A DNA stretch of 41,028 bases, taken from Rhodospirillaceae bacterium Spongia-Bin9. GTDB lineage: Bacteria; Pseudomonadota; Alphaproteobacteria; Bin65. Below, piece after piece: positions 4,142-41,028 of the stretch. The first letter of the stretch is position 1. Each line of letters opens with the position of its first letter. Made by a program: the position numbers and the translations under genes. The stretch is taken from positions 1 to 41,028 of the forward strand of contig FZLR01000020.1 in assembly GCA_900197615.1 (NCBI GenBank), read 5' to 3'. Below the pieces are notes generated by a model. The model worked only from the letters and a program-made list of their open reading frames with translations, made no database searches and was not told the origin of the DNA.

Positions 4142-5797
4142 TCAGATGGTAACCGGCTCCTCGAACCGGCCGTAGACTCCGGCGAGGACCCCGGTGATTT
4201 CGCCGACCGTTGCATAGGCTTTCACCGCCTCCACGATCGCCGGCATCGTGTTGGCGCCGGCGACGGCATCGGCGTGCAGCCGTTTCAGCGCCCGGTCGAC
4301 CGCGTCTGCACTGCGTTCGGCGCGTATCTGCTTCAGGCTGGCGAGCTGCATGTCGAGGTCTTCCCGCCGTTCCGGATGGAACTCGACGTCCGGCTTTTCC
4401 TCCGGCACCCGGTAGCAATTGACGCCGACCTTGCGGGCCTCGCCATTCTCGACCCGGCGATGGTGCTCGTAGGCCTGCTGCGAGACCCGGTCCTGGATGC
4501 GGCCGCCGGCGATGCCGGCGACGATGCCGCCCTCGTCCTGCACGCGCTGCATCGCGGCCTCGATCTTCGCTTCCATCCCGTCGGTCAGCGCTTCGACGAA
4601 ATAGGAGCCGCCGAGCGGGTCGACCGTATCGCACAGGCCGAGCTCCTCGATCAGGAGCTGCATGGTGCGGATCGAGATCTGCTGCGCCCTGGGCGAGGGG
4701 ATCGTATAGGCCTCGTCGTAGCAGCACAGCGCGATCGTCTGGGCGCCGGACAGCACGGCGGAGAGCGCATAATAGGCGCCGCGCATGATGTTGTTCTCCG
4801 GCTGATCGATGGTCAGCCCGAATCCGCCGCCGCCGGCGATCATGCGCATCCACATGGTCTTGGGATTTTTCGCGCCGTACTGTTCTTTCAGGATTTTCGC
4901 CCACATCCGGCGGCCGGCGCGGAATTTGGCGACTTCCTCGAACAGCTTGCCGAAGACGTTGAAGTTGAAGGAGAGCCGTCCGGCGAAATCGTCGATGGCG
5001 AGGCCGCGCCTCAGCGTTTCGTCGATATAGGCCTTGGCGATCTCGAAGGCGTAGCCCATTTCCTCGGCCGGATCGCAGCCGGATTCGCGGATATGGTACC
5101 CGCACACGCTGACCGGGCTGTAGTTGGGCGCATGGCGGGCGCAATATTCGATGGTGTCGCCGACCAGCCTGACCGACGGTTCGACCGGGAAGACCCAGGT
5201 GCCGCGGCCGACCATCTCCTTGAGAATGTCGTTCTGGGCCGTGCCGCGCAGGGTGGCGATGTCGTAGCCGCGCTTCTCCGCCATGGCGAGATACATGGCG
5301 ATCATGATCGCCGCGGCGCCGTTGACGGTGAGCGAGACGGTGATCGCGTCGAGGTCGACGCCGTCGAAGGCGACCTCGAAATCGCGCAGGCTGTCGACCG
5401 CCATGCCGACCCGGCCGACCTCGCCTTCCGCCGCCGGATCGTCGCTGTCCAGCCCGCACTGGGAAGGCAGATCGAAGGCGACGTTGAGGCCGGTGTTGCC
5501 GGTCTCGATCAGATAGTGGAAGCGCTCGTTGGTCGCCTGTGCGTTGCCGAAGCCGGTATACTGGCGCATCGTCCAGGGCCGGCGGCGGTACATGTCGGCG
5601 TGGATGCCGCGGGTGAAGGGATATTCGCCGGGCCGTTCCTCGCCCGCCCCGTTGCCGCCGCCGCTTCCGTTGCCGCCGTTCAGGTCGGCCGCCGTGTAGA
5701 CCGGTTTCACCTCGATACCGGAATCTGCGAAGACCGGCGCGACGCCATGGGGTAATTCCAGCCCGCTCTTCATTTCTCGGGTCAGTTCCTCGGCCAT
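4142..5797 (-). CDS. B12-dependent acyl-CoA mutase, large (catalytic) subunit
   Basis: The 551-residue protein is the substrate-binding TIM-barrel subunit of an adenosylcobalamin-dependent acyl-CoA mutase; the cobalamin-binding domain is a separate gene just upstream. Seen: RRRPWTMRQYTGFG (Y80), VAFDLPSQCGLDSD, GTAQNDILKEMVGRGTW (Q188, R198) and VCGYHIRESG (H235). By alignment from memory, Y80 and R198 match Tyr89 and Arg207 of methylmalonyl-CoA mutase, which hold the substrate carboxylate. Isobutyryl-CoA mutase has Phe and Gln there; hydroxyisobutyryl-CoA mutase has Ile and Gln. Ala107 also argues against the latter. So a carboxylated acyl-CoA is the likely substrate. A Gly/Asn-rich linker lies at residues 40-52. 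The ATG at 5797 overlaps the small-subunit gene by 16 bases. No MeaB-type chaperone gene is seen. Confidence 0.92.
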   Translation of the reverse strand: MAEELTREMKSGLELPHGVAPVFADSGIEVKPVYTAADLNGGNGSGGGNGAGEERPGEYPFTRGIHADMYRRRPWTMRQYTGFGNAQATNERFHYLIETGNTGLNVAFDLPSQCGLDSDDPAAEGEVGRVGMAVDSLRDFEVAFDGVDLDAITVSLTVNGAAAIMIAMYLAMAEKRGYDIATLRGTAQNDILKEMVGRGTWVFPVEPSVRLVGDTIEYCARHAPNYSPVSVCGYHIRESGCDPAEEMGYAFEIAKAYIDETLRRGLAIDDFAGRLSFNFNVFGKLFEEVAKFRAGRRMWAKILKEQYGAKNPKTMWMRMIAGGGGFGLTIDQPENNIMRGAYYALSAVLSGAQTIALCCYDEAYTIPSPRAQQISIRTMQLLIEELGLCDTVDPLGGSYFVEALTDGMEAKIEAAMQRVQDEGGIVAGIAGGRIQDRVSQQAYEHHRRVENGEARKVGVNCYRVPEEKPDVEFHPERREDLDMQLASLKQIRAERSADAVDRALKRLHADAVAGANTMPAIVEAVKAYATVGEITGVLAGVYGRFEEPVTI

Positions 5798-6192
5798 CTC
5801 GCTACATTCTCCTCGATATACCGGACGATGTCGTCGAGCCGGCTGCGCGAATTGAAGACGGCGTCGACGCCGATGTCGGCGAGCGCCTCGTGGTCCTTTT
5901 CCGGCACGTTGCCGCCGACCAGCCACATCCGCGTGCCGAGATCGTACTCGTCCCACAGGTCTTTGAGCCGCCGCGCCAGCGGCAGGTGGGAGCCGGACAG
6001 GATCGACATGCCGATCACGTCGACATCCTCGTCCTTCGCCCGGCGGGCGATATCCTCCGGCGTCTTGCGCAGGCCGGTATAGATCACGTCCATGCCCGCG
6101 TCCTTGAGCGCCCGGGCGACCACCTTGGCGCCGACATCGTGGCCGTCCAGCCCCGGCTTGGAGACCAGCACCCTGATCGGTCTGCGCGTCAT
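5782..6192 (-). CDS. B12-dependent acyl-CoA mutase, small cobalamin-binding subunit
   Basis: The 136-residue protein is the stand-alone B12-binding domain of an acyl-CoA mutase. It carries the base-off/His-on signature DGHDVG (DxHxxG, with the cobalt-binding His at about residue 18), then SILSGSH and the glycine pair in WLVGGNVP that cradle the nucleotide tail. The length equals that of the small subunits of isobutyryl- and hydroxyisobutyryl-CoA mutases. Its ATG overlaps the acyl-CoA dehydrogenase stop by 4 bases (ATGA), and its 3' end overlaps the large-subunit gene by 16 bases, which suggests translational coupling and a 1:1 complex. Confidence 0.94.
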   Translation of the reverse strand: MTRRPIRVLVSKPGLDGHDVGAKVVARALKDAGMDVIYTGLRKTPEDIARRAKDEDVDVIGMSILSGSHLPLARRLKDLWDEYDLGTRMWLVGGNVPEKDHEALADIGVDAVFNSRSRLDDIVRYIEENVARWPRN

Positions 6193-7319
6193 CGCGCGGA
6201 GACCTCCTTGGCGATGATCAGCTTCAGAATTTCGCTGGTGCCGCCGCCGATCAGCAGGAAGCGCACGTCGCGCAGATAGCGCTGGGCGGGATATTCCATG
6301 GCAAAGCCGTAGGAGGCGAAGATGCGCGAAGCATGCTCACAGATGCGCGCCGCGGCCTCCGACGCGAACAGCTTGGCCATCGCCGCTTCCTTGTGATGCG
6401 GCAGGCCCGCGTCGCAGAGTTGCGCGGCGTGGGCGACAAGGTGGCGGGCAGCTTCGAGGTCCGTCCCCATGTCGGCGAGGCGCATCTGGATGGCCTGGAA
6501 GCGGTCGATCGGCTTGCCGAACTGTTTGCGCTCGCCGGCATATTGCACCGCGTCGTCCAAGGCGGCGCGGGCGATGCCGATGCCCATGGCGCCGGTCATG
6601 ATGCGGATTCGTGCCAGGATCTTGCGCAGATGCTGCTCGCCTTCGCCGACGGGGCAGAGCCGGTGGCTGTCCGGCACGAAACAGTCGTCGAACGACAGTT
6701 CGGAGGTCGGCAGCGCCCGCACGCCCAGCTTCTCGATGGCGCGTCCGACCTGCAGACCCTCGAAATCGCGCTCGACCAGGAAGATGGTGATGCGGTCTTC
6801 CTCGCCGGCCTTGGCGAAGACGGTGAAGAAGTCGGCAATCGGCGCCGAGGTCACCCACATCTTCTGGCCGTTGAGCCGCCAGCCGCCGTCCGCTTTCGCC
6901 GCGCGCGTGTTCATGCCGTGCAGGTCGGAGCCGGCGTTGGGCTCGGTCATGCAGATGCCGCCGATCTTCTCGCCGTCGAGCGCCGGGATCAGCAGCCGCT
7001 CGACGATGTCGTCGTTGCCCAGTTCGTTGAGGAAATGGGTGCCCATCAGCGCCTGCATCGAGCAGGCGGCAGCGAGCGCCATCGAGCCGCGGGACAGTTC
7101 CTCGACCGCCAGGCAGAAGGGCAGCAGGCCGAGGTCCAGCCCGCCGACCTCCTCCGGATAGCGCATGCGGAAAAAGCCGAGTTCGCCGATCTGCCGGAAC
7201 AGGTCGCGCGGAAACTCGTGGGCTTCGTCGATCGCCTCGGCCTGGGGGAGGATTTGTTCGTCGCAGAAACGCGCGAACGTCTCCCGGATCGCGGCGATTT
7301 CTTCCGGCAGCTCGATCAT
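6189..7319 (-). CDS. Acyl-CoA dehydrogenase family flavoprotein, usual catalytic Glu replaced
   Basis: The 376-residue protein has the full acyl-CoA dehydrogenase fold: an N-terminal helical domain (SRGSMALAAACSMQ), the central FAD-contact stretch CMTEPNAGSDLHGMNTRA and KMWVTSAPIADFF, and the C-terminal helical domain with ERKQFGKPIDRFQAIQ and RYLRDVRF. It should pass electrons from an acyl-CoA to electron-transfer flavoprotein. Near the C-terminus the motif reads LIGGGTSEI, so glycine 359 stands where medium-chain enzymes have the catalytic glutamate (EGT). The alternative position used by isovaleryl-CoA dehydrogenase also appears non-acidic. The protein may use another base or do a different flavin reaction. 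It lies between hyuB (22-base gap) and the mutase small subunit (4-base overlap). Confidence 0.93.
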   Translation of the reverse strand: MIELPEEIAAIRETFARFCDEQILPQAEAIDEAHEFPRDLFRQIGELGFFRMRYPEEVGGLDLGLLPFCLAVEELSRGSMALAAACSMQALMGTHFLNELGNDDIVERLLIPALDGEKIGGICMTEPNAGSDLHGMNTRAAKADGGWRLNGQKMWVTSAPIADFFTVFAKAGEEDRITIFLVERDFEGLQVGRAIEKLGVRALPTSELSFDDCFVPDSHRLCPVGEGEQHLRKILARIRIMTGAMGIGIARAALDDAVQYAGERKQFGKPIDRFQAIQMRLADMGTDLEAARHLVAHAAQLCDAGLPHHKEAAMAKLFASEAAARICEHASRIFASYGFAMEYPAQRYLRDVRFLLIGGGTSEILKLIIAKEVSAR

Positions 7320-7341
7320 GCGCCCGTTCCGCTCCCGGCCG

Positions 7342-9084
7342 TCACTCCGCCGCCACGGCGGCGCTGCCCGTCCGGGCGCGCAAGGCCAGCGTCGCGTCGC
7401 GGTCGATCCGCAATGCCGCCCGGTCGACGACCGCGTCGTAGTCGCGTTCCGCCGCCTCCGGCGTCACCTTGCCGTCGAGCAGGTCGCGGTCGATGGCGGC
7501 GAAATCCCGCGCGTGCGGATCGCCGTAGCCGCCGGCGCCCGGCTGGCGCAGGCTGACGACATCGCCCTCGGCCAGCGTGTCCAGCGCCTTGGAGCGCATG
7601 CGCTCTTCCTTCGGCGAACCGGGATTGCGGATAATCGCGCCGGGTGCGCCGGGCTTGCCGCCGAACAGCCCCTGGGGCGGGAACTTCTGGCGGTCGGCGT
7701 AGCGCGCGAAACTGACCGGCCCGGTGAGCAGGCGGATGTCGCGGCGCAGCGCCAGGCTGCCGCGGAATTTTCCGGCGCCGCCGCTGTCGGGCAGGAATTC
7801 GTAGCGGTCGATGCGGAACGGGAAGCGGCTTTCCACCGCTTCGACCGGCGTGTTCATGAAGCGGGGCAGGTGGCTGTCCTGGCCGTCGGCGCCGTCCTGG
7901 CGCGGCCGGCCGCCGTTACCGCCGCCCTGGATGTCGATCATGATGAAGGTCTCGCCGGTCTTCGGGTCCGTGCCGCCGAAACCGCAGGTCGTGATCTGGC
8001 CGTGGCTGCCGGCGGTCACCCGCTCAGGCGCCGCTTTCGACAGGGCGAAGAAGGTGCCCTCGGCGATCTTCTGCGAGGCGTTGGTGCGCGCCGCGACCGC
8101 GCCCGGCGGCAGCGGATCGGCGATCGTGCCCTTCTTGGTCACCACCTCGACGGGCCGGTAGCAGCCGGAATTGGGCGGCGCGTGCGGATCGACCACCGCG
8201 ATCATCACATAGTAGATCGCGGCGTGGGTGTTCGCGATGGTGGAGTTGGTGTTGCCCTCGGCCTGCGGGTCGCTCTCCGTCAGGTCGACCACCGCCCGGT
8301 CGCCGTCGATGGTGACCTTGAGGGCGATGCGGATCGGATCGTCGTTGACGCCGTCGTCGTCGATGAAATCCTCGGCTTCGTAAGTGCCGTCGGGCAGGGC
8401 CGTCAGCCCCTGGCGCATGCGTCGTTCGGAATAGTCGAGCAGGTCGTTCCAGGCGGTCTGTACGACCGTCCTGCCGTAGCGGTCGAACAGGCGGCCGAGG
8501 CGCTCGGTGCCGACCATCAGCGAACTGATCTGCGCCCGGATATCGCCCATCGTCTTGTCGGGTACGCGGATCTGGTTGCGGATGATGCCGACGATCTCGC
8601 GGTCCTCGACGCCGGCCTTCACGAGCTTCACCATCGGCAGGCGCAGGCCTTCCAGATAGATCTCGCGGATGCCGCCCGCGACGCCGCCGGCCGCCACGCC
8701 CCCCAGGTCGGAATGGTGGGTGATGTTGCCGACGAAGCCGATCAGCGCGCCCTCGTGGAAGGCCGGCGCGATGGCGTAGAGATCCATGATGTGCTGGCCG
8801 CCGCGGTAAGGGTCGTTGGTGATAATGACATCGCCGGGCGCCAGGTCTTCCGGCCGGTATTCCTTGACCAGTTCGCGCATGGTGATCTCGAACCCGGCAA
8901 GCAGGCTGGGCGTGTGGTGGGCCTGGGCGACCGTCTGGCCCCTGGCGTCGGTCACGACGCAGGAGATGTCCTTGATCTCGGTGATGATGGTCGAGCGGCC
9001 GGTGCGCACCAGCGTGTAGCCCATCTCGTCGGCGATCTGCTCCGAGGCGTAGCGGATCACCTGCATGGTCACCAGATCGTTCAT
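7342..9084 (-). CDS. hyuB: Hydantoinase B / oxoprolinase-type subunit
   Basis: A complete 580-residue HyuB protein. Family landmarks are the N-terminal ERxx-like region with DMGYTLVRTGRS-type sequence, DAAGRGQ-like TDARGQTVAQAHH, the metal/substrate loop DVIITNDPYRGGQHIMDL, ITHHSDLGG, the mid-region NSTIANTHAAIYY, and DSGGAGKFRGSLALRRDI near the C-terminus, ending in the GGAGGYGDPHARD-like glycine-rich turn. It forms a complex with the HyuA subunit encoded 11 bases upstream. The family includes N-methylhydantoinase, 5-oxoprolinase, caprolactamase and acetone/acetophenone carboxylases; sequence reading alone does not separate them. Its companions here are a B12 mutase, an acyl-CoA dehydrogenase and a CoA transferase, suggesting that its product is a carboxylic acid that is then CoA-activated. 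The symbol marks the family, not a proven substrate. Confidence 0.92.
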   Translation of the reverse strand: MNDLVTMQVIRYASEQIADEMGYTLVRTGRSTIITEIKDISCVVTDARGQTVAQAHHTPSLLAGFEITMRELVKEYRPEDLAPGDVIITNDPYRGGQHIMDLYAIAPAFHEGALIGFVGNITHHSDLGGVAAGGVAGGIREIYLEGLRLPMVKLVKAGVEDREIVGIIRNQIRVPDKTMGDIRAQISSLMVGTERLGRLFDRYGRTVVQTAWNDLLDYSERRMRQGLTALPDGTYEAEDFIDDDGVNDDPIRIALKVTIDGDRAVVDLTESDPQAEGNTNSTIANTHAAIYYVMIAVVDPHAPPNSGCYRPVEVVTKKGTIADPLPPGAVAARTNASQKIAEGTFFALSKAAPERVTAGSHGQITTCGFGGTDPKTGETFIMIDIQGGGNGGRPRQDGADGQDSHLPRFMNTPVEAVESRFPFRIDRYEFLPDSGGAGKFRGSLALRRDIRLLTGPVSFARYADRQKFPPQGLFGGKPGAPGAIIRNPGSPKEERMRSKALDTLAEGDVVSLRQPGAGGYGDPHARDFAAIDRDLLDGKVTPEAAERDYDAVVDRAALRIDRDATLALRARTGSAAVAAE

Positions 9085-35860: not shown

Positions 35861-36985
35861 TCAGGCCGAACCCCAGATGGCGTCGGCGGTGCGCAGGGTG
35901 AGGTCGAGCTTCGCCATCTGGTCGTCGAAGGTGACGATGTTGCCGCCGACCTCGCTGGCGAAGCCGCATTGCGGGCTGATTGCGAGGCGCTCCATCGGGA
36001 CATGGCGCGCCGCCTCGTCGACCCGGCGGCGCAGGTCGTCGATCCGCTCCAGCTCGCCGGATTTGGACGTGATCAGGCCGAGCACGACGCCCTTGCCGTC
36101 GGCCATGAAGCGCAACGGCTCGAAACCGCCGGAGCGCTCGTCGTCGTATTCCAGGAAATAGGCGTCGATTTTCAGATTGGCGAAGATCGCCTCGGCGATC
36201 GGCTCGTAGCTGCCGCGCGAGATCCATTTCGAGCGCGAGTTGCCGCGGCACAGATGGACCGTGAGATAGGTGTCGGTCCGCCGCGCGCGGACGCACTCGT
36301 TGAGCAGGTCGACATAGGTGGCGAGCAGCGCGTCCGGGTCCTCGCCGATGTCGCGCACGCTCTCGCGCAATTTCGAATCGAGGAAATAGGTCAGCACCGG
36401 ATCGTCGATCTGGATATAGCGGCAGCCGGCGGCCTCCAGCGCGGCGATCTCCTCCCGGTAGATGGCCGCGATGTCGGCCCAGAAGGCGTCCATCTCGGGA
36501 TAGGCCTCGCGGCTCACCGCCGGCCGGCCGCCGTGGAAATGGATGCGGCTCGGCGAGGGAATCGTGATCTTGGCCGTCTTCGAGGTCGCGGCGGCCAATA
36601 CCTCGTAGTCCCGCCGCATGATATCGCCCGGCCGGGTCAGCCGGGCCTCGGTGCGCACCGTGCTCGGATAGTATTCCCAGCCCGTGTCGCCGCCGGAGAA
36701 GGGCAGGTTGCGGTCGGGCTCGGCGATGCGGATGCCCCGGATCGCCTTGATGAATTCGAGCCACCAGATGGTGCGCCGGAACTCGCCGTCGGTGATCGCC
36801 TCCAGGCCGGCAGCCTCCTGCACCCCGGCGACCTGCGCCACGCAATCGTCCTCGACCGCCTGGAGCGCCTCGCGGCCGATATCGCCGGCCTCGAATTGGC
36901 TGCGCGCGTCGAGCAGGCGCTGCGGTCGCAGCAGGCTGCCGACATGGTCGGCGCGAAAGCGCGGCGCGCCGTTCGATGCGGTCAT
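35861..36985 (-). CDS. MetE C-terminal-like (cobalamin-independent) methyltransferase
   Basis: The 374-residue protein corresponds to the catalytic half of cobalamin-independent methionine synthase, without the N-terminal half. It opens with FRADHVGSLLRP and has GLEAITDGEFRRTIWW, IQIDDPVLTYFL, and zinc ligands in VHLCRGN (His, Cys), FLEYDDERSGGFEPL (Glu) and ISPQCGFAS (Cys). Such stand-alone proteins take methyl groups from various donors to a thiol; the partner is unknown. A strong GGGAGGGA ribosome site precedes ATG 36985. Its 3' end meets tpiA. Confidence 0.92.
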   Translation of the reverse strand: MTASNGAPRFRADHVGSLLRPQRLLDARSQFEAGDIGREALQAVEDDCVAQVAGVQEAAGLEAITDGEFRRTIWWLEFIKAIRGIRIAEPDRNLPFSGGDTGWEYYPSTVRTEARLTRPGDIMRRDYEVLAAATSKTAKITIPSPSRIHFHGGRPAVSREAYPEMDAFWADIAAIYREEIAALEAAGCRYIQIDDPVLTYFLDSKLRESVRDIGEDPDALLATYVDLLNECVRARRTDTYLTVHLCRGNSRSKWISRGSYEPIAEAIFANLKIDAYFLEYDDERSGGFEPLRFMADGKGVVLGLITSKSGELERIDDLRRRVDEAARHVPMERLAISPQCGFASEVGGNIVTFDDQMAKLDLTLRTADAIWGSA

Positions 36986-37193
36986 GGTTCCCTCCCGTCC
37001 GTGCCGCCGACACTATTGCCGCAACCGGCGTCGGTCTACAACTGCCGGGCCTGCAGGCAACCCGGCAAGCCCGGCATCGGACCAAGTGCTTGACCAGGTC
37101 GCTGCCGGAGCCAATCTCCCAGGTCGAACCGGGCGACTGCGGCGCCCGGCTGCACAGCCGTTGCAACCGGGCCGGGCGAGGAGCGGGGACCCC

Positions 37194-37436
37194 ATGACGC
37201 GACATGTGAAGATCGGAGAGGCGAAGACCCACCTTTCCGCACTGCTGGCGGCGGTGGAGGCCGGCGAGGATCTGGTGATCTGCCGCGGCAGGACGCCGGT
37301 CGCCCATGTGACGCGGATCGCCGGCGAAGGCGAACATGCCGCGCTCAGTGCGACGCTGCGCCGGGAACGGGCGAGGCAGAAGGCAGTAACGACGGCCGAG
37401 ATCCTGTCCTGGCGTCACGAGGGACACGACCGCTGA
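37194..37436 (+). CDS. Phd/YefM/VapB-like antitoxin
   Basis: The 80-residue protein has the Phd/YefM opening VKIGEAKTHLSALLAAVEAGEDLVICRGRTPVAHVTRI, a small DNA-binding and dimerisation fold, followed by a flexible basic tail that would bind the toxin. ATG 37194 has GAGGAG upstream. The stop overlaps the toxin ATG by one base (TGATG). Together they form a type II toxin-antitoxin operon. Confidence 0.9.
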   Translation: MTRHVKIGEAKTHLSALLAAVEAGEDLVICRGRTPVAHVTRIAGEGEHAALSATLRRERARQKAVTTAEILSWRHEGHDR

Positions 37437-37837
37437 TGGCGTTCGTAACCGACGCCTCGGTGGCGGCCGCCTGGGTGCTGCCGGACGAAGACGCGGCGCT
37501 GGCCGAGCTTGCGCTGGACCGGCTGGGCGCGGAGACGGCAATGGTGCCCGCCGTCTTCTGGCACGAACTGCGCAACCTTCTGCTGTCGGCCGAGCGCCGG
37601 GGGCGGGTCGACGGCGGTCACGCCGACGCTTCGATGGCGCGGTTGCGCCGTCTTCCCATCGTCTGTCCGTCCGAAACCGACGACCGGGAGGTCATGGCGC
37701 TGGCGCGCGCCCACCGCCTGAGCGCCTGCGATGCGAGCTATCTGGCGCTTTCGGTTCGCGAAGGCTGTGCACTGGCAAGTCTGGACCGGCGCCTGAACGC
37801 GGCTGCGGCGTCTGAAGGCGTGGCTCCCTTCGCTTGA
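37436..37837 (+). CDS. PIN-domain toxin (VapC-like)
   Basis: The 133-residue protein is a PIN ribonuclease. The acidic metal-binding residues are all present: D6 (VTDASVAA), E44 (FWHELRN), D99 (ACDASYLALS) and D117 (SLDRRLN). It would cleave tRNA or rRNA when free of its antitoxin. The length is typical. It starts inside the stop of the antitoxin gene. Confidence 0.92.
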   Translation: MAFVTDASVAAAWVLPDEDAALAELALDRLGAETAMVPAVFWHELRNLLLSAERRGRVDGGHADASMARLRRLPIVCPSETDDREVMALARAHRLSACDASYLALSVREGCALASLDRRLNAAAASEGVAPFA

Positions 37838-37996: not shown

Positions 37997-38410
37997 ATGC
38001 CGGTGACGAAAGGCATCGAGGCCCTGGTCGAGGAAGCCTACGCCCGGGTCGAGACCTGGACGGTCGAAGACGCCATCGCCCGCTTCGGCGACGAGACGAT
38101 CCAGCTCGTCGACATCCGCGACATCCGCGAACTGTGGCGCGAGGGCACGGTGCCCGGCGCGGTCCACGCGCCGCGCGGCATGCTCGAATTCTGGGTCGAT
38201 CCGGCGAGCCCGTATCATCGCGAGGTCTTCGCGACCGACAGGAAGCTGGTGTTCTACTGCGCCGCCGGCTGGCGCAGCGCGCTCGCCGGCAAGGCGATGC
38301 TGGAGATGGGCCTAACCGACGTCGCCCATATCGACGGCGGCTTTACGGGCTGGAAGAAGGCCGGCGGCCCGGTCGAGGAGAAGCCCCAGCCGGCGCCGAA
38401 GAAGGGGTAG
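37997..38410 (+). CDS. Rhodanese-like domain protein
   Basis: The 137-residue protein is one rhodanese domain: IQLVDIRDIRELWREGTVPGAVHAPRGMLEF, then VFYCAAGWRSALAGKAM with the sulfur-carrying C88 in a six-residue loop (CAAGWR), and the closing VAHIDGGFTGWKKAGGPV. The insertion PSPYHREVF-like in the middle (ASPYHREVFATDRK) is common in this subgroup. It transfers sulfane sulfur to cyanide or thiols in the cytoplasm. GGAGGAG precedes ATG 37997. It has its own transcription unit, ended by palindrome copy 3. Confidence 0.93.
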   Translation: MPVTKGIEALVEEAYARVETWTVEDAIARFGDETIQLVDIRDIRELWREGTVPGAVHAPRGMLEFWVDPASPYHREVFATDRKLVFYCAAGWRSALAGKAMLEMGLTDVAHIDGGFTGWKKAGGPVEEKPQPAPKKG

Positions 38411-38569: not shown

Positions 38570-41028
38570 ATGACCGATGCACCGGATCGCGCGGCGCCGC
38601 TGGCGGGGGTTCGCGTTCTCAATCTCGGCACGCGCTGGCCCGGCCGGGTCGCCGCGATGCTGCTGGCCGACCAGGGGGCGGACGTAGTCGAGATCGTGCG
38701 GCCGGGCCGCGAGGCCCACGCCGTCGATCCCCTGCTGGACCGCGGCAAGCGCCTGGTCGAGCTTGACCTCAAGGACGAGGCGGCGCGGCGCATCTGCCGC
38801 GACCGGGCCGTGGAAGCGGATGTCGTCATCGAGAACATGCGCCCCGGCGCCGCCGCCGAACTGGGGCTCGACTATGCCGGGCTCGGCGGCGCGCGAAGCG
38901 GCCTCGTCCACGTCTCCCTGCCCGGCTTCGCCGAGGGCGACCCGATGCGCGACGTCCCGGCCTGGGAGGGGACCATCGACGCGTCCGTCGGCGTCTACAG
39001 CGACATCAGCCCGCTCGGCGCCCTGCTCGGCACGCCGGTCTACTCGGCGATTCCGATGGCGTCGGCCTATGGCGGCGTTCTGGGCAGCCTCGCCGCTTCG
39101 CTCGGGCTCTACCGGCGGCAGCGCACCGGCCGCGGCCAGCATATCGAGGCGCCGCTGGCCGATTGCGTGATGGCCGCCATGGCGCTGCTCACCTGCAAGA
39201 TCGAGGGCCAGCCTTCGCGCTACAATTTCCCGCCCATAGACAACGCGGTGCTGGACCTCGTGTTTCCCGCGCTCCGCGATCTGCGCGGTCGCATGACCGA
39301 AGACCATGTCGCCCGGATCGCGGAATACGTCCGCGGCCACGCCAACCCGACGATCAACTTCTACGAGTGCGCGGACGGACGCATCCTGTTCGTCTGCGCC
39401 CCCGACCATGTCTACCAGAACCGCACCTTCCTCCAGATTCTCGGCGTCTACGACAAGGTTATCGCCGAGGGCATGGTGAGCGAGACCCCCTACGTCGAGC
39501 ACGACGCGGGCAACAACGTAAACAAGGCGGCGAGCCTGACCCCGGCGTGGCGCGCACGTCTCATCGAGCTCATCGCGGCGGCGGCCAAAACCCGCCCGGC
39601 CATGGAATGGGAAGCGACGATGCGCGCGGCCAACGTGCCGGCGTCCATGGTCCGGACGAGCGCCGAATGGCTGACCGACCCGACCTTCCGGGAAGCCGGG
39701 ATCACCGCCGACCTCGATGACCCGGTCCGCGGCCCGGTGCGCCAGCCGGGGCGGTTCCTCTCCATCGAGAACGCGGCGGTCCGCTCGCCGGCGCTCCGGG
39801 CGGGGACGACCGCCACGGCAGACTTCGCCTGGCTGGCCCCGGCGATGGCGCGGCCGGCGCCCGCGGTTCCGGATGCGGACGCGGATTCGAAGCCGCGCGG
39901 GATGCTCGACGGAGTCCGGGTGCTCGATTTCTCGAACATCGTCGCCGGCCCCGCGGCGGGCCGCACCCTGGCCGAACACGGCGCGGACGTCATCCGCATC
40001 GATCCGCCGGCGCCCCAGGCCGGGCCCTACGCGACCATGTGGTTCGGCGTCGACGTCAACCAGGGCAAGCGCGCCATCGTTCTCGACCTCAAGACCGATG
40101 CGGGAAAGGCCGCTCTGAAGCGGCTGGTCGAAGGCGCGGACATCGTCCTGCATAACTTCCTCGACCGGTCCGCCCGGTCGCTCGGCATCGCGCACGACCA
40201 GCTCGCGGCGATCGACCCCGCCATCGTCTCGGCCCAGATCGGCGCCTGGACGGGGATGGAGCCCGGCCCTTACGACAACGATCCGTCTTTCGATCCCGTG
40301 CTCCAGGCGGCAACCGGAATCATGGCCCGGTACGGCGACGGTCCGGAAAAGCCGGTCATGCACGCCATCGCCTCCTGCGTCGACTATATCACCGGCTTCT
40401 CGACGGCGGCCGGCATCGCGCAGGCCCTGCTGGCGCGGGAGCGCGGGCAGGGCGGCAGCTACGTCCGCACCTCGCTCGCGATGGCGGCGCAACTGGTCCA
40501 GTTCCCCCACATGGTCGCGTGGGACGGCGCGGGTCCGGGCGCGGAGCCGTCCGGCCAGCAGGCGACGGGCGAAAGCCCCGAACAGCGCCTCTACGAGACG
40601 GCCGACGGCTGGGCCTGGATCGGCTGCCGGCCCGGCGACGGCGCCCGGCTCGCCGAAGCGCTCGGCGCGGCCGACGGCTTTGGGGACGACCTGGGCACGG
40701 CGATCGCGGAGGCGGTGCGCGGACTTTCGACCGGGGAGGTCCAGGCGCGGCTCGCGGAGGTTCCGGGCGCCGGGGCGGGTCCGCTGCGGACGCTCGCCGA
40801 CATCCGCGCCGACCGCACGGTGGAGGCGGCGGACCCGGGGGAAGGGGAGGATCGCCGCTCCAACTGGATGAGCGGCGGCTCGATTTGCCTGCGCCGCGGC
40901 GCGCATCCCTCCGGCCACACCACGACCCTGCCCCTGCCGACCTGGGTGCGCCCCGAAGCGGCGGCGGTGCAGCACCTCGCCCCGGCGCCCCTGCCCGGCG
41001 CCCACACCGCCGAAGTGCTGGCCGAGGC
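38570..41028 (+). CDS. Tandem two-domain CaiB/BaiF CoA transferase, 3' end outside window
   Basis: From ATG 38570, with AAGGAGG 8 bases upstream, one frame stays open for 819 codons to the window edge. It holds two family III CoA transferase domains. Domain 1 starts PLAGVRVLNLGTRWPGRVAAMLLADQGADVVEIV and includes YRRQRTGRGQHIEAPLADC; domain 2 starts at about residue 443 with GMLDGVRVLDFSNIVAGPAAGRTLAEHGADVIRID and includes ARERGQGGSYVRTSLAM. At the catalytic aspartate position domain 2 has D605 (ASCVDYITG), but domain 1 has S165 (MASAYGG). So only the second half looks competent; the first may be structural. The linker (about 415-442) is Ala/Pro-rich. The end is probably close, since domain 2 is nearly complete. 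Confidence 0.9.
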   Translation, partial: MTDAPDRAAPLAGVRVLNLGTRWPGRVAAMLLADQGADVVEIVRPGREAHAVDPLLDRGKRLVELDLKDEAARRICRDRAVEADVVIENMRPGAAAELGLDYAGLGGARSGLVHVSLPGFAEGDPMRDVPAWEGTIDASVGVYSDISPLGALLGTPVYSAIPMASAYGGVLGSLAASLGLYRRQRTGRGQHIEAPLADCVMAAMALLTCKIEGQPSRYNFPPIDNAVLDLVFPALRDLRGRMTEDHVARIAEYVRGHANPTINFYECADGRILFVCAPDHVYQNRTFLQILGVYDKVIAEGMVSETPYVEHDAGNNVNKAASLTPAWRARLIELIAAAAKTRPAMEWEATMRAANVPASMVRTSAEWLTDPTFREAGITADLDDPVRGPVRQPGRFLSIENAAVRSPALRAGTTATADFAWLAPAMARPAPAVPDADADSKPRGMLDGVRVLDFSNIVAGPAAGRTLAEHGADVIRIDPPAPQAGPYATMWFGVDVNQGKRAIVLDLKTDAGKAALKRLVEGADIVLHNFLDRSARSLGIAHDQLAAIDPAIVSAQIGAWTGMEPGPYDNDPSFDPVLQAATGIMARYGDGPEKPVMHAIASCVDYITGFSTAAGIAQALLARERGQGGSYVRTSLAMAAQLVQFPHMVAWDGAGPGAEPSGQQATGESPEQRLYETADGWAWIGCRPGDGARLAEALGAADGFGDDLGTAIAEAVRGLSTGEVQARLAEVPGAGAGPLRTLADIRADRTVEAADPGEGEDRRSNWMSGGSICLRRGAHPSGHTTTLPLPTWVRPEAAAVQHLAPAPLPGAHTAEVLAE

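Follow-up and report, generated by a model that had tools for sequence, protein, structure and literature searches.

Family III CoA-transferases have been described both as single-domain enzymes and as proteins made of two related halves. For a single-domain member, passages of PMC9196870 describe how the linkers of two subunits interlock and how pockets form between the Rossmann domain of one subunit and the small domain of the other, and aspartyl anhydride and aspartyl-CoA intermediates are reported for a family III enzyme in passages of PMC9813914. Among the two-domain proteins, DddD requires its catalytic Asp (passages of PMC4437653) and its gene has been reported in an arrangement with dddT, dddB and dddC (passages of PMC8163506), and PtmU4 is described in PMC6006322 as a two-domain protein of a thiocarboxylic acid pathway with a conserved Asp430 in its C-terminal domain and mutants that are 125–400-fold down. 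In BbsEF (succinyl-CoA:benzylsuccinate CoA-transferase; PDB 9fn0, 9fol) the two subunits are homologous and only one of them seems to carry the catalytic Asp; the title of 9fol names a D178-CoA adduct. In the present work, we have analysed a fused CoA-transferase gene at the end of the window (i.e. the whole stretch of 41,028 nucleotides under study) and have compared it with these systems.

The fused gene, its orthologs and its surroundings

The gene occupies 38570..41028 (+), where an ORF and its translation, two matches to the Pfam family CoA_transf_3 and a set of similarly built orthologs identify a fused two-domain family III CoA-transferase, as the initial annotation of the window had proposed. 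Its frame starts with an ATG at 38570 and its last full codon ends at 41026, with 819 residues present; the 5' end is complete, and the contig, exactly 41028 bases long, stops short of the 3' end. Hence nothing further of the gene can be read, in agreement with the earlier remark that the gene runs off the window; comparison with 14 orthologs indicates that about 30–35 C-terminal residues are missing from this copy. CoA_transf_3 matches the protein twice (E 1.7e-115; 386.5 bits against a curated cut-off of 23.3), and none of the NCBIfam CoA-transferase equivalogs exceeds its curated cut-off (best 178.1 bits against 442). Domain 1 (38591..39814, +; residues about 8–415), delimited by Pfam, alignments to PDB entries and a model match, has the CoA-transferase fold without the catalytic Asp. 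It is joined by a poorly conserved linker (39815..39901, +; residues about 416–444), which is gapped in the alignment, has a higher dN in 10 of 10 pairs and forms a block of lower pLDDT in the model, to the catalytic domain 2 (39902..41026, +; residues 445–819), which was recognised by Pfam (best stretch, residues 446–754) and model matches and lacks its C-terminus. The two domains are 27% identical across 197 residues.

A search of 61 nearby genomes including the window's own (E <= 1e-60) gave matches in 7, viz. the window's own genome, 5 of the 6 remaining genomes of the genus and 1 of the 4 from other genera of the family. Scanning one genome per species yielded 74 loci, 13 of them full-length fused loci with 47–89% identity and the remainder far relatives. 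Five loci (L012, L013, L014, L016 and L018) were taken, on matching ORF lengths and identities, to be the same as L008, L007, L010, L006 and L011, respectively, and were counted once. The 14 non-redundant orthologs are about 47–90% identical to the window protein, and every one is a single ORF of the same layout, for which reason the fusion is not an assembly error. The position of the gene at a contig end would suit an artefactual joining of two adjacent genes, but the 14 orthologs come from separate assemblies, three of them chromosome-length records (L015, L020 and L022), and this explanation can for practical purposes be dismissed; a split two-gene form, which had been named in advance as a sign of such an error, was found in none of the 14.

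Upstream of the CoA-transferase lies a rhodanese-like gene (37997..38410, +; Pfam Rhodanese and neighbour clustering), which also has counterparts in the same-genus loci L012, L013, L014 and L016, with one gene between in L014; any functional link between the two genes would be hypothetical. Across the ortholog loci scanned, the neighbourhoods are conserved only among close relatives and differ otherwise, and no single substrate is indicated by them. A nitrile hydratase alpha gene and a short beta-like ORF precede the ortholog in two gammaproteobacterial MAGs (L015, 4234–5530; L023, 4419–5942), a branched-chain (Liv)-type ABC transporter follows it in L015 (8983–12993), and acetoacetate-CoA ligase and enoyl-CoA hydratase genes are present in the neighbourhoods of L022 and L020, respectively; other neighbours encode flavin-dependent oxygenases, a flavin reductase, an acyl-CoA dehydrogenase and another CoA-transferase. 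Elsewhere in the window, a PIN-domain ORF (Pfam; 37436–37837, +) directly follows the end of the ORF at 36684–37436, which by eye resembles a Phd/VapB-type antitoxin (Pfam gave no match in the whole 250-aa frame), and the two probably constitute a VapBC-like pair.

Catalytic positions in the two halves

In HMMER alignments with solved enzymes, Ser165 of domain 1 (codon 39062..39064, +) falls on the catalytic Asp of Brucella formyl-CoA transferase and of E. coli YfdW, and Trp132-Glu133 falls on the Tyr-Glu of YfdW's Tyr-Glu-Asn. Asp605 (codon 40382..40384, +), the predicted nucleophile of domain 2, coincides with the Asp in 4ed9 and in 5yit. The earlier assignment of Ser165 in place of Asp in the first domain and of Asp605 in the second is upheld by these alignments, and the outcome named along with it as a refutation, viz. 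an Asp of domain 1 lying on the catalytic site, did not arise: another domain 1 Asp in that place is ruled out, and the closest acidic residue that has been kept is Glu133 (codon 38966..38968, +), recognised both in the fused rows and in the PDB alignments. Of the features of family III (Frc/CaiB), the CoA_transf_3 domain is present and the Asp at the start of a long helix is provided by Asp605, not by domain 1 alone. The title of PDB entry 1t3z names a formyl-CoA transferase in which Ser replaces Asp169, and the natural domain 1 thus resembles a deliberately made variant.

Neither Ser165 nor Asp605 varies among the 15 rows (the 14 orthologs and the window protein). Wider sampling drew on a further 397 genomes from the phylum (E <= 1e-60; 8 matches, of which 7 have both domains) and on plasmids, of which 1188 records matched and 68 covered at least 80% of the query; 17 fused-relative regions were fetched from the latter and 16 proteins were aligned, L099 being left out. 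In 39 fused rows, the Ser165 column contains Ser in 37 and Gly in 2, and position 133 is Glu or Asp in all 39; the Asp605 column is Asp in all 38 fused rows with a domain 2, the domain 1-only ORF of L110 being counted for Ser and excluded here. Among 57 single-domain relatives, the Ser165 column is occupied by Asp in 54, and by Pro, Glu and Cys in the other three, so that the Ser of the fused proteins is no chance occurrence. The count of 39 leaves out the proteins of L077, L080 and L083 (four rows), though they had been aligned earlier: L080 has Tyr/Asp and L083 Leu/Asp, the latter with an unsure alignment, and the BbsE-like row of L077, assigned by whole-length alignment to the domain 2 column, has Tyr there. 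The L110/L111 gene (G189:C18, about 134920–135939) belongs to the DddD clade, has domain 1 only and looks truncated; domain 2 was not found in the 10.5 kb fetched.

The fused protein of L087 shows the Ser/Asp pattern (domain 1/domain 2), and so does each of its ten near relatives. The L087 gene adjoins those for a BCCT transporter, an iron-containing alcohol dehydrogenase and a methylmalonate-semialdehyde dehydrogenase, which we take to be dddT, dddB and dddC, respectively, and by this context the L087 protein is DddD. The plasmid-borne relatives of DddD in L090, L094, L096, L098 and L099 (mostly rhizobial) adjoin a GMC oxidoreductase gene, unlike the ddd cluster of L087. Passages of open-licence papers yielded nothing on a Ser in domain 1, which is not a claim that it is unpublished.

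A first AlphaFold model based on 14 sequences was weak (pLDDT 60.9, pTM 0.69), and a second one based on 65 sequences, in which it is mostly domain 2 that the additional single-domain rows appear to cover, was used instead (pLDDT 84.1, pTM 0.92). In this confident two-half model, which follows a check proposed in the initial annotation, each half has the family fold: model residues 441–819 match solved family III enzymes with Z of about 20–25 and residues 6–422 match the racemase 2g04 with a Z of 21.4, although the matches listed are mostly for 441–819 and domain 1 is less tested by them. Ser165 and Asp605 are placed by the model at the N-termini of equivalent long helices (164–186 and 603–627). 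The longest solved chain matched by sequence is of 456 aa, and hence by this test the PDB copy that was searched holds no two-domain member.

Origin of the fusion and proposed role of domain 1

A tree was constructed from 71 half-domain and single-domain rows, including 27 domain 1 and 27 domain 2 halves and leaving out L007–L010 (near copies), L083 and L103–L110. One change (98/93) sets the 27 domain 1 halves apart from the 27 domain 2 halves, and the window clade has the DddD clade as its sister on the domain 1 side as well as on the domain 2 side; the tree program marks the long branches of the actinobacterial and Massilia rows as uncertain. The single separating change and the sister relationship in both halves therefore point to a single old fusion, followed by divergence. 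As judged from these sequences, the Ser/Asp split is normal for a known two-domain group and not special to the window protein; it is an old and fixed feature of that group and no oddity of one protein.

We assign a probability of about 0.78 to the reading that the window protein represents an uncharacterised sister clade of DddD, in which each chain works as an internal pseudo-heterodimer and has one covalent active site. The two halves would fold on each other within one chain in the manner of the subunits of an interlocked dimer, and Asp605 of domain 2 would attack the acyl-CoA donor, giving an anhydride and then an aspartyl-CoA thioester at Asp605, from which CoA would be handed to an acceptor carboxylate. 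Domain 1, whose nucleophile has been lost (Ser165), would act as a fixed partner and contribute its small domain to the pocket of Asp605, so that the single covalent site would consist of Asp605, the Rossmann part of domain 2 and the small part of domain 1. Domain 1 probably contributes to the one active site, and such a contribution would account for the conservation of a half that has no nucleophile. An internal pseudo-heterodimer with one dead half had been suggested from the outset. The pseudo-heterodimer remains the natural reading of the two-half model, with the fusion and the Asp-less half also speaking for it, whereas the word 'dead' calls for caution, as the domain is constrained like its partner. 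Over ten pairs, dN/dS is 0.14–0.25 for domain 1 and 0.12–0.29 for domain 2, and the invariant columns are 92 of 408 in the former and 120 of 375 in the latter; purifying selection acts on both halves.

These same values weigh against domain 1 being a decaying remnant that has no role. The nucleophile is indeed gone from domain 1, and the Ser in its place matches the Asp169-to-Ser variant in 1t3z, but a constraint equal to that on domain 2 and the fixation of Ser165 in distant clades render a remnant highly improbable. Domain 1 might alternatively be a second chemically active site, in which the fixed residues Ser165 and Tyr167, next to the fixed acid Glu133, process the CoA thioester formed at Asp605, in a two-step relay within one chain that may comprise, for example, elimination or hydration of the thioester; we hold such a relay to be improbable, and if it were true, the unassigned lyase step of DddD would fall in domain 1. 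As regards domain 2, it might belong to some other CoA-thioester enzyme, e.g. an isomerase or racemase, given that alpha-methylacyl-CoA racemase has the same fold with an Asp at the matching place and that the model fold matches racemases at similar Z. This is unlikely, since the nearest characterised relatives in the tree are two-domain CoA-transferases and the top sub-threshold NCBIfam models for the window protein, though none is over its cut-off, are CoA-transferases.

The remaining alternative is that the window protein is a true DddD, i.e. a DMSP CoA-transferase/lyase with DMS and 3-hydroxypropionyl-CoA as its products. The sister position of its clade in both halves and the Ser/Asp pattern shared with DddD would accord with this, and the host genome has two BCCT transporters, possible importers of DMSP or betaine, which decide nothing. 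The protein nevertheless falls in a separate clade with about 30% identity to the DddD-context protein L087, the motif around its Asp differs, and no dddT/dddB/dddC-like set was seen among the ortholog neighbours scanned, which are a subset, the window itself ending inside the gene. Further, expression of a DddD-like protein that is 35.64% similar to DddD gave no cleavage of DMSP (passages of PMC6309047). With an identity of about 30%, and a 35.64%-similar protein being inactive on DMSP, DMSP-lyase activity is not to be assumed, and we consider a true DddD unlikely.

Comparison with DddD, PtmU4, BbsEF and single-domain enzymes

The window protein shares with DddD two fused family III domains, a similar length, and Ser followed by Asp at the same places, the catalytic Asp of DddD being presumably that numbered 602. 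It differs in lying outside the clade that holds the ddd-cluster protein and in the motif around the Asp (ASCVDY against GTLDV or GTIDV). PtmU4, compared by description alone, resembles the window protein in its two-domain layout and in the conserved Asp of its C-terminal domain, and its Asp430 implies a shorter spacing (passages of PMC6006322).

The comparison with BbsEF is based on L077, which has a BbsE-like protein with Tyr and a BbsF-like protein with Asp at the catalytic place, a pair that we take to be BbsE/BbsF. The window protein differs from this pair, which is encoded by two separate genes, has Tyr instead of Ser and lies in another part of the tree; a heteromer of the BbsEF type was not found in the window or its 14 orthologs, where there is one ORF and the halves branch apart from the BbsE/BbsF-like rows. 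In L080 (a Sulfuritalea MAG; about 5371–7902), BbsE-like and BbsF-like halves occur in one 844-aa frame with Tyr and then Asp; this protein, which lies in another part of the tree, is a further example of a fusion in which one half is catalytic.

Formyl-CoA transferase, CaiB and YfdW share their fold and catalytic Asp with domain 2, and differ as single-domain homodimers with two active sites from the window chain, for which one covalent site is proposed. The layout itself is already known from the DddD type, as described in PMC6006322, and what is new is an uncharacterised clade. Since this layout is normal for the DddD type, the window protein is an uncharacterised cousin of DddD and not new in kind, and its conserved sister clade allows the residues specific to DddD to be separated from those that every fused pair needs.
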